From positions 310,001 through 374,000 of the forward strand of contig NZ_WUMV01000006.1 of NCBI RefSeq assembly GCF_009826895.1: 64,000 bases of DNA. The letters are read 5' to 3'. Made by a program: the position numbers and the translations under genes. Numbering within the stretch: the stretch's first letter is position 1; the number at the start of each line of letters is the position of its first letter. Below are positions 20,085 through 56,905 of this stretch, piece by piece. The stretch comes from Stappia sediminis (GTDB lineage: Bacteria; Pseudomonadota; Alphaproteobacteria; Rhizobiales; Stappiaceae). The notes beneath the pieces are model-generated. The model saw nothing but the letters and a program-made list of their open reading frames with translations, was not told the origin of the DNA and searched no databases.

Positions 20085-20618
20085 ATGACCTGGACAACCG
20101 AACGTGTCGATCTCCTCAAGAAGCTTTGGAGCGACGGCCTCAGCGCAAGCCAGATCGCCGGCGAACTGGGCGGCGTAACGCGCAATGCCGTGATCGGGAA
20201 AGTGCACCGCCTGGGACTGTCCGGCCGCGCGAAGGCCCCCGCACCGCAGCAAAAGCCGCGAAGGCCCGTCTCGAAACCGGCTTCGGGCTTGTCTGGCGGA
20301 TCATCGGCGCATTCCTACAGCCGCGGCGGAGGCAGCGCCCCGCAAACCCACGGCGCAACGGCGCTCAAGATGGAAACCTCGCCTGCCCCGGCTCCGGCGC
20401 CTAAGGAACAGCCGGTCGCCGAGCTGGTGCCGATGGCGAAGAAGGCGACCATCCTTCAGTTGACGGAGCGCACCTGCAAATGGCCGATCGGCGATCCGAG
20501 TACCGAGGACTTCTATTTCTGCGGCAATCCTTCGGACCCCAGCGTACCCTATTGCGCATACCATTGCCGGATCGCCTATCAGCCGGCGACGGACCGCAAG
20601 CGCAGGGCTGCGGGATAA
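20085..20618 (+). CDS. gcrA: Cell-cycle regulator GcrA
   Basis: This 177-residue protein is a sigma70-associated transcription activator of the alphaproteobacterial cell cycle. It works at promoters carrying CcrM-methylated GANTC sites. Residues 1-48 form the helix-turn-helix (TWTTERVDLLKKLW, then ASQIAGELGGVTRNAVIGK). A proline- and alanine-rich linker spans about 50-120. The C-terminal Cys/His-rich RNA-polymerase-binding part has CKWPIGDP, FCGNP and CAYHC. The ATG at 20085 starts exactly at the conserved N-terminus; the longer frame is rejected. A strong terminator follows. Confidence 0.93.
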   Translation: MTWTTERVDLLKKLWSDGLSASQIAGELGGVTRNAVIGKVHRLGLSGRAKAPAPQQKPRRPVSKPASGLSGGSSAHSYSRGGGSAPQTHGATALKMETSPAPAPAPKEQPVAELVPMAKKATILQLTERTCKWPIGDPSTEDFYFCGNPSDPSVPYCAYHCRIAYQPATDRKRRAAG

Positions 20619-52478: not shown

Positions 52479-54257
52479 TCAAGAAGCCAGGGCTTCCGCG
52501 TCATATCCAAGCACTGCATCGGCGGCCGCCAGGATGTCCGCCTTGAGCCCGCCCGTCTGCCCGAGCTGGCTTTGCGCGAAATAGCGCGCAAGCTGCACGC
52601 GCTTTTTGTCGGCCGGCGTATCGGCTGCCGAAGCGACGGCGCCCTTGATCAGCAGCGCGCCGCCGAGCGTCACACCGGCAAGCCTCAGGTAGGGTGTTGC
52701 GCCGGAGAGCGCTTCTCCCATCCGCCCATCCGCCATTGCCGCGAGCAGCCACTCGCTTGCCTCCTCCAGATCGCCGACTGCCGTATCGAGCCTGTCGGCC
52801 ATCGCCGTGAACCCTTCGCGGTTGGAGGCACGGGCACTGCCGGAGATTTCGCGAAGTTCTGAAATAAAGCCGCGAATATGCTCACCGCCCGAAAGCGGCA
52901 GCTTGCGGGTCACGAGGTCGATCGCCTGAATGCCGTTGGTGCCTTCGTAGATCGGCGCGATGCGGGCATCGCGCAAAAGGCGGGCTGCTCCCGTTTCCTC
53001 AATGTAGCCCATGCCGCCGTGCACCTGCACGCCAAGCGAGGTGACCTCCACGCCGATATCGGTCGAAAGCGCCTTGGCGATCGGCGTCAGCAGGCCCGCG
53101 CGCTCGCTCCAATGCCTCTTCGCGGCATCGTCTTCGGCAAGCTGCGACATGTCGATCGCATGGGCGTTCGAATAGCAGATCGCGCGCGCGACCTGCGTAT
53201 AGGCCTGCATGGAAAGCAGCGAGCGCTTGATATCGGGGTGCATGGCGATCGGGCTCATGCCTTCGGATGTATCGCCGGCGGCGCGCCCCTGTTTGCGTTC
53301 CAGCGCATAGGCCAGCGCCTCCTGGCTCGCGCGTTCGCCGACGCCAACGCCCTGGATGCCGACGGCAAGGCGAGCGTTGTTCATCATCGTGAACATACAG
53401 GCAAGACCACGGTTTTCCTCGCCGATCAGCCAGCCGATAGCGCCGTCCTTGTCGCCGAAGGCCATGGTGCAGGTGGGCGAGCCGTGAATGCCGAGCTTGT
53501 GTTCCACACCGGCGCAGCGCACGTCGTTGCGCTTGCCAAGGCTCCCGTCGTCATTGACGAGGAACTTCGGTACGAGGAAGAGCGAAATACCCCTGGTGCC
53601 GGCGGGCGCATCCGGCAGGCGCGCGAGCACCAGATGCACGATATTGTCGGTGAAATCATGCTCGCCGTAAGTAATGAAGATCTTCTGGCCGAATATGCGG
53701 TAGGTCCCGTCGTCCGCCCGTTCGGCGCGCGCGCGAAGGGCATTGAGGTCGGAGCCTGCCTGCGGCTCCGTCAGGTTCATCGTGCCCATCCATTCGCCGG
53801 AAACGAGCTTCGGCAGGTATTTTTCCTGCAGCTCGGGGCTTGCGTGCTTTTGCAGCGCTTCTATCGCGCCGATCGTCAGCGTCGGGCCGATGGCGAACGC
53901 CATGGATCCCGAATTCCATAATTCCAATGCGGCGGCATGCAGCATCGTCGGCAGGCCCTGCCCGCCGAATTCAGGATCGCCGGTCAGAGAGTTCCAACCG
54001 CCCTCGCACCATTTCGCGTAAGCTTCCTTCCAGCCCGGCGGCGTCGTCACCTCGCCGTCCTTCAGCGGCGTGCCGTGCCGGTCGCCGATCTCGTTCAGCG
54101 GCGCGATTTCTTCCGTGGCGAAGCGCCCTGCTTCCTCGATGATCGCGTCGACCAAATCTTCCGAAAGCTCGGCATGACGGGGTGCTGCCAGAACGTCGGC
54201 AAGCCCGGATACGGATTTCAGCGTAAACAGGATGTCGCCAACCGGTGCACGATACAT
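52479..54257 (-). CDS. Acyl-CoA dehydrogenase with C-terminal domain (DmdC-like)
   Basis: A 592-residue FAD enzyme. The N-terminal MYRAPVGDILFTLKSV and overall length match the long DmdC-type acyl-CoA dehydrogenases. The FAD segment MNLTEPQAGSDL (about 160) and KIFITYGEHD are seen, with YIEETGAARLLRDARI and IYEGTNGIQAIDL near the catalytic region. DmdC acts on methylmercaptopropionyl-CoA, but many members use other acyl-CoAs. Start ATG 54257 has GGGGAG upstream. The frame further upstream is not part of the protein. It heads a three-gene operon. Confidence 0.9.
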   Translation of the reverse strand: MYRAPVGDILFTLKSVSGLADVLAAPRHAELSEDLVDAIIEEAGRFATEEIAPLNEIGDRHGTPLKDGEVTTPPGWKEAYAKWCEGGWNSLTGDPEFGGQGLPTMLHAAALELWNSGSMAFAIGPTLTIGAIEALQKHASPELQEKYLPKLVSGEWMGTMNLTEPQAGSDLNALRARAERADDGTYRIFGQKIFITYGEHDFTDNIVHLVLARLPDAPAGTRGISLFLVPKFLVNDDGSLGKRNDVRCAGVEHKLGIHGSPTCTMAFGDKDGAIGWLIGEENRGLACMFTMMNNARLAVGIQGVGVGERASQEALAYALERKQGRAAGDTSEGMSPIAMHPDIKRSLLSMQAYTQVARAICYSNAHAIDMSQLAEDDAAKRHWSERAGLLTPIAKALSTDIGVEVTSLGVQVHGGMGYIEETGAARLLRDARIAPIYEGTNGIQAIDLVTRKLPLSGGEHIRGFISELREISGSARASNREGFTAMADRLDTAVGDLEEASEWLLAAMADGRMGEALSGATPYLRLAGVTLGGALLIKGAVASAADTPADKKRVQLARYFAQSQLGQTGGLKADILAAADAVLGYDAEALAS

Positions 54258-54444
54258 GTTGCGTTTCTCCCCTGACACGTTCAATGCGCCGTTTTTCTTG
54301 ACGAAGCGCCTCGCTGCCCGCATTACCCGACATCGGGTCCGCTCGCGGGCCGGACGGACATTATCGCAGTTGACGTTAACGTCAACCATATTCACGACGC
54401 TGTCCCTCCCCCATTGGGCGAGGGGCGATACCATCGGACAGGCG

Positions 54445-55440
54445 ATGATACGCTGGATCGCAAACCCTGACGTTAGGGAATTAAGCGAAGCGCCGGAGTT
54501 TGCCGCCGCCGTCTCGGCGATCCGTTCCGGCCAGCTTGTCGCCATCCCGACGGAAACCGTCTACGGCCTCGGCGCCGATGCCACGAACCCGCAAGCCTGT
54601 GCGGGCATTTACGCCGCAAAGGGCCGGCCGAGCTTCAATCCCCTGATCGCTCACGTCCCGTCTCTGGCGGAGGCTGAAAGCCATGGCGTATTCGATGCGC
54701 GGGCACGAAGGCTGGCCGAAGTTTTCTGGCCCGGCCCGCTCACGCTCGTCGTTCCGAAACGTCCCGAAAGTCCGGTATCGGACCTCGCGACCGCCGGACT
54801 GGACACGATTGCGTTACGCGTCCCGGCGGCCAGGATCATGCGCGACCTCGCCCGGGCGGCGGGCCGGCCCATCGCCGCCCCCAGCGCCAACCGTTCGGGG
54901 CGCATCAGCGCCACGACGGCGGACGATGTCATTGAAGATCTCGGCGAGCATCTCGCCGTCGTCATCGACACAGGCCCCACGCCCGTCGGCGTGGAATCGA
55001 CAATCGTTGCGCTCGCCGGTGACAGGCCCTTGCTCCTTCGTCCCGGCGGGCTGTCGCGTGAGAAAATCGAAGCCGTCCTCGGCGAGCCGCTCTTGCGCGC
55101 CGGCTCGAACGACGAAACACCGGCTGCCCCCGGCATGCTGACTTCGCACTACGCGCCGGATGCGCGGCTCAGGCTTCACGCGAAGAACGTCGGACCGGGA
55201 GAAGCGTTGCTGGCGTTCGGCCTGCCCCTTCCTCCGGGGTACGAAAAGGCGGCGGCGATCGAGAACCTGAGCGAGACGGGAGACCTGAAGGAAGCCGCCG
55301 CGCGCCTTTTCACCGCGTTGAGAAAACTGGATGCAAGCGGCGCATCGACGATCTGCGCGATGCCGGTACCGAATGAAGGACTTGGCGAAGCCATCAACGA
55401 CCGTCTTGCCCGCGCCGCCGCTCCGCGAGCGTCCGAATAA
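54445..55440 (+). CDS. L-threonylcarbamoyladenylate synthase (Sua5/TsaC)
   Basis: A 331-residue enzyme that makes threonylcarbamoyl-AMP for the t6A modification of tRNA. The YrdC domain (about 15-210) has PTETVYGLGADA, KGRPSFNPLIAHV, and SANRSGRISAT. The Sua5 C-terminal domain follows a linker with APGMLTSHYAPD. The two-domain form fits Sua5. Start ATG 54445 matches the family; the longer frame from 54232 overlaps the divergent acyl-CoA dehydrogenase. Confidence 0.92.
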   Translation: MIRWIANPDVRELSEAPEFAAAVSAIRSGQLVAIPTETVYGLGADATNPQACAGIYAAKGRPSFNPLIAHVPSLAEAESHGVFDARARRLAEVFWPGPLTLVVPKRPESPVSDLATAGLDTIALRVPAARIMRDLARAAGRPIAAPSANRSGRISATTADDVIEDLGEHLAVVIDTGPTPVGVESTIVALAGDRPLLLRPGGLSREKIEAVLGEPLLRAGSNDETPAAPGMLTSHYAPDARLRLHAKNVGPGEALLAFGLPLPPGYEKAAAIENLSETGDLKEAAARLFTALRKLDASGASTICAMPVPNEGLGEAINDRLARAAAPRASE

Positions 55441-55756
55441 CGGGAAAACCTCAACCTACCTCTGCGGCATCGATAAAAGTGCTTAGGTGCACAACCAAAA
55501 CTGTGACCATTTTGCCGCAGCATTTTCCTATCCACAGCACTCGCTTTCGACGTTTGAAGGGGTTGACGCCGTAGGGCTCAAAAAAGGCTGTTCCAGTAAC
55601 TTTCAGATTCTCAACAACTTTTGCCATGCTGCACTGCGGAGTGACCTCAGTTGAGGCGGAATTTTTCTGACGAATATTACAGTTCGAAACGATCGTTGTC
55701 TTAAGTCTACATGATATTCGCTTCGCATATGCGAACGAATCATCTAGTATTTAACT
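55441..55756. other. Non-coding stretch upstream of the candidate small RNA
   Basis: This 316-base stretch is more AT-rich than its surroundings and holds no convincing frame. A 14-base perfect palindrome, TTCGCATATGCGAA, lies at 55722-55735. Its first six bases could serve as a -35 box for TAGTAT at 55745-55750, spacing 17. Confidence 0.4.
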
Positions 55757-55852
55757 CGTAAACCTTGGTGATGCAGCGGACCTCCCCACGAGCCTGGTGG
55801 CTCGCAACTCTTCCCGGAGCAGGCTCCTCCAGCCTGCTCCGTTTCTTCTTTC
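55757..55852 (+). ncRNA. Candidate small RNA with anti-Shine-Dalgarno loop (suhB/alpha-r14-like)
   Basis: The 3' end is a strong intrinsic terminator: GGAGCAGGCT (55816-55825) pairs with AGCCTGCTCC (55831-55840), followed by GTTTCTTCTTTC. The five-base loop is exactly CCTCC. A second hairpin, CGAGCC-TGGT-GGCTCG, lies at 55789-55804, with a single-stranded CCTCCCC just before it. CU-rich loops that pair with ribosome sites mark several alphaproteobacterial small RNA families. The likeness to the suhB/alpha-r14 class is from memory; the 5' end is a guess from weak promoter boxes. Confidence 0.6.
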
Positions 55853-55975: not shown

Positions 55976-56905
55976 TTGGCGACGCTGCTGCTTCATCACA
56001 CGGCCTACCTCGATCACCTCACGCCTGTCGGCCATCCCGAGCGCCCGGATCGCATCCGCGCCATCGACCGGATCCTCGAGCATGAGCGTTTCCAGGCGCT
56101 GGAGCGAGAGCCCGCGCCGCTCGGTGCGGTGGAAGATGTGCTTCTCGCCCATCCTGCGGAATATGTCGACATGATCCGCAATGCGGTTCCCTCCGAGGGG
56201 CTTTTCCGCCTGGATATGGACACGACCGTTTCTCCGGGCAGCTGGGAAGCGGCGATGCGCGCCGTCGGCGGCGCCTGCCTTGCCGTCGACGAGGTTGTAT
56301 CGCGAAAGGTCTCCAACGCGTTTTCAGCCTCGCGCCCGCCCGGCCATCATGCGGAGCGCATTCGCGCAATGGGCTTTTGCCTCTTCAACAACGCCGCGGT
56401 CGCCGCCCGCCATGCCCAGGCAAAACACGGGGCGGAGCGTGTGGCCGTGGTTGATTTCGACGTCCACCATGGCAATGGCACGCAAGACATCTTCTGGTCC
56501 GATCCCACGCTCATGTATTGCTCCACCCATCAGGCGCCTTTCTATCCCGGCACAGGCGCGGCGAGCGAGACGGGCGAGCACGGCAATATCGTCAACGCTC
56601 CCTTGAGCGCGGGCGACGGCGGCGCGGAATTCCGCGAGGCGATGGATATCGTGATCCTGCCTCGGCTTGAGGAGTTCGCCCCCGACCTCATAATCATTTC
56701 CGCCGGCTTCGATGCCCACGCGCGTGACCCGCTCGGCGGCCTCAACCTTGTGGAGACGGATTTCGCCTGGGCGACGGAACGCCTCATGGACGTTGCGGCG
56801 CGCCACGCCCAGGGCCGCGTCGTCTCGCTTCTGGAAGGCGGCTATGACCTGGAAGGGCTTGCCCGTTCCACCGCCGCCCATGTCATGACGCTCATGACCG
56901 CGTGA
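55976..56905 (+). CDS. Histone-deacetylase-family (acetylpolyamine/acetoin-type) amidohydrolase
   Basis: A 309-residue zinc amidohydrolase of the HDAC fold. The motif RPPGHHAE gives the paired catalytic histidines (about 124-125). Zinc ligands are in [11 protein letters not shown] (D162, H164) and [12 protein letters not shown]. The sequence YPGTGAASE also fits. Bacterial members act on acetylated polyamines, proteins or small amides. The likely start is TTG 55976 ([13 protein letters not shown]), as upstream residues are not conserved; no ATG fits. xseB follows after 115 bases. Confidence 0.88.

Follow-up and report, generated by a model that had tools for sequence, protein, structure and literature searches.

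The 64,000-nucleotide stretch of DNA analysed here (the window) holds what sequence comparison identifies as a real, single-copy small RNA (sRNA) gene, occupying the same position in almost every sampled member of the Stappiaceae, a largely marine and host-associated bacterial family to which the closest relatives of the window's genome, Hongsoonwoonella zoysiae and Stappia albiluteola, also belong. Across the genomes compared, we observe that the gene is conserved with a common anatomy, occurs as a single copy at a fixed location, is autonomous from the genes beside it and has a conserved GANTC site. On balance, we favour the reading that it encodes an independently transcribed, trans-acting anti-Shine-Dalgarno (anti-SD) sRNA of the Stappiaceae with a GcrA/CcrM-type promoter. 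The element is about 90 nt long and lies between a Sua5/YciO/YrdC-type gene (54232–55440, + strand) and a histone-deacetylase-like gene with an uncertain start codon (55976–56905, + strand), both named from their own sequences. The predicted sRNA extends from 55757 to 55850 on the + strand, its 5′ end placed from the −10 box and its 3′ end from the terminator, give or take a few bases.

A 171-base query had matches in 19 of 41 genomes, every one of them from a single family (Stappiaceae), and a contig scan with GATGCAGCGGACCTCCC returned 76 stretches, of which those from Stappiaceae nearly all had the neighbouring genes and the unrelated ones had none. Identical cores were merged, leaving 49 distinct homologues. 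Since these were chosen by motif, some of the invariance within the 17-mer used for the search comes from the selection itself, which made no demand on synteny, the hairpin, the promoter element or the CACCT strand. Every homologue shares a common anatomy of an invariant 5′ arm, ATGCRGCGRACCTCCC, a hairpin of the form CGRGC…GCYCG, the strand CACCT and a terminator that varies, and all 49 had at least one of the two neighbour genes matched, nearly always both. Of the alignment columns, 24 are invariant and 8 nearly so, and the arm, hairpin 1 and the CACCT strand hold almost all of them; the arm varies slightly (ATGCGGCGG, GCGAACC and GATGCTGCGG) in variants that BLAST or the covariance model described below brought in. 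On the + strand of the window, the invariant 5′ arm ATGCAGCGGACCTCCCC, delimited by near-invariant alignment columns and including the anti-SD part ACCTCCCC, occupies 55771–55787 and is followed by hairpin 1 (CGAGCC-TGGT-GGCTCG, 55789–55804), a single strand that reads CAACTC here and CACCT in most homologues (55805–55810), and an intrinsic terminator whose stem and loop vary freely among species (55815–55850).

The earlier note on this DNA had proposed a gene for a compact sRNA that exposes an anti-SD sequence, and had named pairing that is not conserved in relatives as evidence that would count against it. Hairpin 1 was paired in 94.7% of cells, compared with at most 41% in slid controls, and carries 22 double-sided (compensatory) changes against 6.2 in shuffles, so the pairing is conserved and the proposal is supported. 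To this can be added a fold stability that beats shuffles (z −2.8, with 2 of 200 shuffles equally good). The second hairpin that had been described (55789–55804) and the free CCTCCCC strand, unpaired at 55781–55787 within the 5′ arm, are both present, with ACCTCCCC of the arm and the hairpin conserved across species. The terminator hairpin with an SD-complementary CCTCC loop is also there in the window, at 55815–55841 with a TCCTCC loop and followed by TTTCTTCTTT, but such a loop occurs in only 4 of the 49 homologues (three species of the window's genus, and one further sequence with CCCTCC), and with this lack of conservation the idea of the loop as the working part is not supported. The terminator sequence is free, and its U-run stays on the + strand throughout the homologues, which led us to reject a transcript from the antisense strand. 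A leader peptide starting ATGCAGCGGACC was also rejected, as its wobble positions are invariant and its frame differs from species to species beyond about six codons.

The position of the element on the same strand as both neighbours raises the question of whether it belongs to one of their transcripts. It could be a cis-acting leader (attenuator or riboswitch) of the deacetylase gene that ends in a conditional terminator, given that it does end in a terminator and that the deacetylase gene follows about 250 nt downstream in most species. In four species (loci L047, L054, L006 and L083), however, the gap is 1.1–1.4 kb and contains an opposite-strand, periplasmic-binding-protein-like ORF running towards the sRNA terminator, so that the sRNA there is an independent unit and not a deacetylase leader. 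We noticed no alternative antiterminator pairing in the element, and a conditional terminator sits poorly with a terminator sequence that is not conserved; we regard a leader as quite improbable. A processed or 3′-UTR-derived RNA of the Sua5-type transcript, without a promoter of its own, seems to us improbable as well, if slightly less so. The Sua5/YrdC-type gene stays adjacent to the sRNA in the Stappiaceae (tblastn on homologous loci), and the one terminator detected between the two coding genes is that at the sRNA 3′ end, as such an RNA would have it, but about 330 nt separate the Sua5-type stop codon from the arm and a conserved, promoter-like GAATC-N3-TA element lies directly upstream of the sRNA.

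That element consists of GAATC, a GANTC (CcrM) methylation site at 55737–55741 (+ strand) between the −35 and −10 positions, and a candidate −10 box, TAGTAT, at 55745–55750 (+ strand), proposed from the GANTC-N3-TA spacing. In 37 of the 49 homologues GAATC precedes the ATG of the arm by 25–34 bases, where about 0.9 would be expected at the local GANTC rate, although the homologues are related and the 37 not independent, and the expectation gives no probability. The TA of the −10-like box follows three bases after GAATC in all but one or two of the 37, and the sequences upstream of the sRNA otherwise diverge widely. Pseudovibrio, Breoghania and a small number of others have no GANTC in the promoter but retain the sRNA. 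Cell-cycle promoters of Caulobacter that have GANTC between −10 and −35 become active 40–60 min into the cycle, and ctrA P1 is the model case of a GANTC cell-cycle start (PMC4287350). The site upstream of the sRNA has this same placement within a predicted promoter, and we infer GcrA/CcrM methylation control of the sRNA promoter. The window also has a gcrA gene (PF07750, 187.8 bits) at 20085–20603 (+ strand), about 35 kb away from that of the sRNA, and a RAMA-domain (CcrM-type) methylase gene is present in the genome. GANTC occurs 79 times in the window against 348 expected from dinucleotide content, and this more than fourfold depletion fits a CcrM-methylated genome.

It had previously been suggested that a 14-base palindrome, TTCGCATATGCGAA (55722–55735, no strand assigned), which overlaps the expected −35 position, marks tight regulation. 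This was not borne out, as palindromes of this kind are at chance level in the window (10 compared with about 9 expected) and this one is broken in the closest relatives, H. zoysiae having TTCGCATCCGCGAA and S. albiluteola lacking it; it is probably incidental. The conserved GAATC beside the −10 box is the better promoter evidence. In L035, L038, L043, L059 and further loci of Roseibium/Pannonibacter, a second upstream box, TTACNGTAA then CTCGC, is conserved about 55–60 bases upstream of the arm. It is possibly an operator, and only ATTACAGT of it is present in the window.

A covariance model built from the homologues, R1, was run on 397 genomes of the order. Nearly all sampled Stappiaceae scored above 50 bits with one copy per genome, and outside the family the R1 matches in these genomes were weak and none was convincing. 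The best of the weak matches, inspected as possible homologues in other families, were unrelated sequence without the neighbours and without the arm-hairpin layout. Several other families have the two neighbour genes side by side but nothing like the element between them. Because R1 is restricted to the Stappiaceae and other families have the neighbours without the element, the sRNA gene appears either to have originated in the Stappiaceae or to have been retained by them alone.

The element is a stand-alone gene that has a terminator and exposes a conserved CCUCC-type sequence, which are features of the anti-SD sRNA class. The ACCUC of the arm is mostly unpaired in predicted ensembles (mean unpaired probability about 0.6–0.85). 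From this, and by analogy with known alphaproteobacterial sRNAs (PMC7143759), we infer that the sRNA probably blocks ribosome binding sites via its exposed ACCUCCCC strand. A pure SD-blocker would not need arm conservation extending as far past the anti-SD core as is seen here (GATGCAGCGG), and the invariant arm might bind a protein or one dedicated mRNA instead of many Shine-Dalgarno sites. Pairing of the arm at translation starts in the window gave no gain over shuffled arms, and in 12 genomes the gene itself was the only place to match the arm's whole complement at 0 or 1 mismatch, both of which agree with a dedicated partner. Against this, the sole relative lacking GATGCAGCGG, the Roseibium-group genome with locus L116, has retained ACCTCCCC, the hairpin and CACCT, and we consider such a partner unlikely, although it is the alternative to which we give the most weight. 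Predicted pairing at the ctrA and gcrA starts, looked at as targets, was within background. In four genomes, the genes whose start region carries GGGAGGTC included three recurring groups, named by eye as a YejE-like permease (3 genomes), a Sox-type cytochrome (2 genomes) and another protein (also 2 genomes); these are too few to be taken as targets, and the permease is possibly confounded by overlapping coding sequence.

Returning to the anti-SD reading, RNA polymerase would start just upstream of 55760, from the promoter with GAATC beside its −10 box, and transcription would stop at the intrinsic terminator near 55850. The transcript would present an exposed 5′ arm (…GGACCUCCCC), then a protecting hairpin and then a second short ACCU strand; through the exposed arm it would base-pair at the Shine-Dalgarno regions of target mRNAs and lower their translation. 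GAATC would be methylated by CcrM and read by GcrA, giving a pulse of sRNA expression after replication of the locus. The fullest form of this mechanism, a family-specific and broad anti-SD regulator that is switched by CcrM/GcrA at its promoter and made in a burst at each replication of its gene, is one we put forward tentatively, as rather less likely than not. If the GANTC link does hold, it would be a directly testable example, outside Caulobacter, of a post-transcriptional regulator whose timing is set by DNA methylation.

When the covariance search against Rfam 15 was run, no family matched the sRNA region, even at E ≤ 5, and the element thus adds a sharply defined sRNA family that is absent from Rfam 15 as searched. 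A literature search found no sRNA study of the Stappiaceae, though absence there is no proof of novelty. The earlier note had suggested membership of the suhB or alpha-r14 class, and the sRNA is likewise short, terminator-ended and alphaproteobacterial with an anti-SD sequence. However, matches to suhB (RF00519, 68.6 bits) and alpha-r14 (RF02344, 66.4 bits) are found elsewhere in the same genome, and since these genuine copies indicate that the models work here, the sRNA locus is something else; we now find membership of either class scarcely credible. Alpha-r14/NfeR1 of Sinorhizobium resembles the sRNA in its exposed anti-SD sequence and terminator, but alpha-r14 has three hairpins, multiple copies and CCUCCUCCC in hairpin loops (PMC3927594; PMC7143759), whereas the Stappiaceae sRNA has two hairpins, one copy and its conserved motif in the single-stranded 5′ arm. 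SuhB and AbcR (alpha-r15) carry the anti-SD sequence in unpaired regions, as the Stappiaceae sRNA does (PMC7143759), but differ from it in arm and hairpin sequence, and neither has a model match at the locus.

EcpR1 of S. meliloti and CcnA of Caulobacter are cell-cycle-linked small RNAs, as we propose for the Stappiaceae sRNA. The CCCC loop of CcnA pairs with GGGG in the leaders of ctrA and gcrA (PMC8959179). The two differ from the sRNA in their conserved loop and in their location, EcpR1 at divK-pleD and CcnA at the replication origin, and identity with EcpR1 or PmaR on the basis of location or motif is excluded by published descriptions. Sm84/SmelC671 of S. meliloti is a conserved Rhizobiales sRNA of about 80–110 nt with a terminator (PMC2573895, PMC3927594), and resembles the Stappiaceae sRNA in both size and terminator. 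It lies between SMc03988 and SMc03989, and R1 gave no convincing member in the other families sampled. Along with SmelC151, it was considered as a possible counterpart on the basis of location or motif.

Two further observations concern other RNAs of this genome. Two alpha-r14-like RNAs (56.1 and 66.4 bits) lie on the same strand about 600 bases apart (G000 C11:688005–688133 and 688609–688735), and are possibly a tandem pair. The window itself also contains a SAM-alpha riboswitch aptamer (RF00521, 86.1 bits) at 1956–2035 on the − strand.
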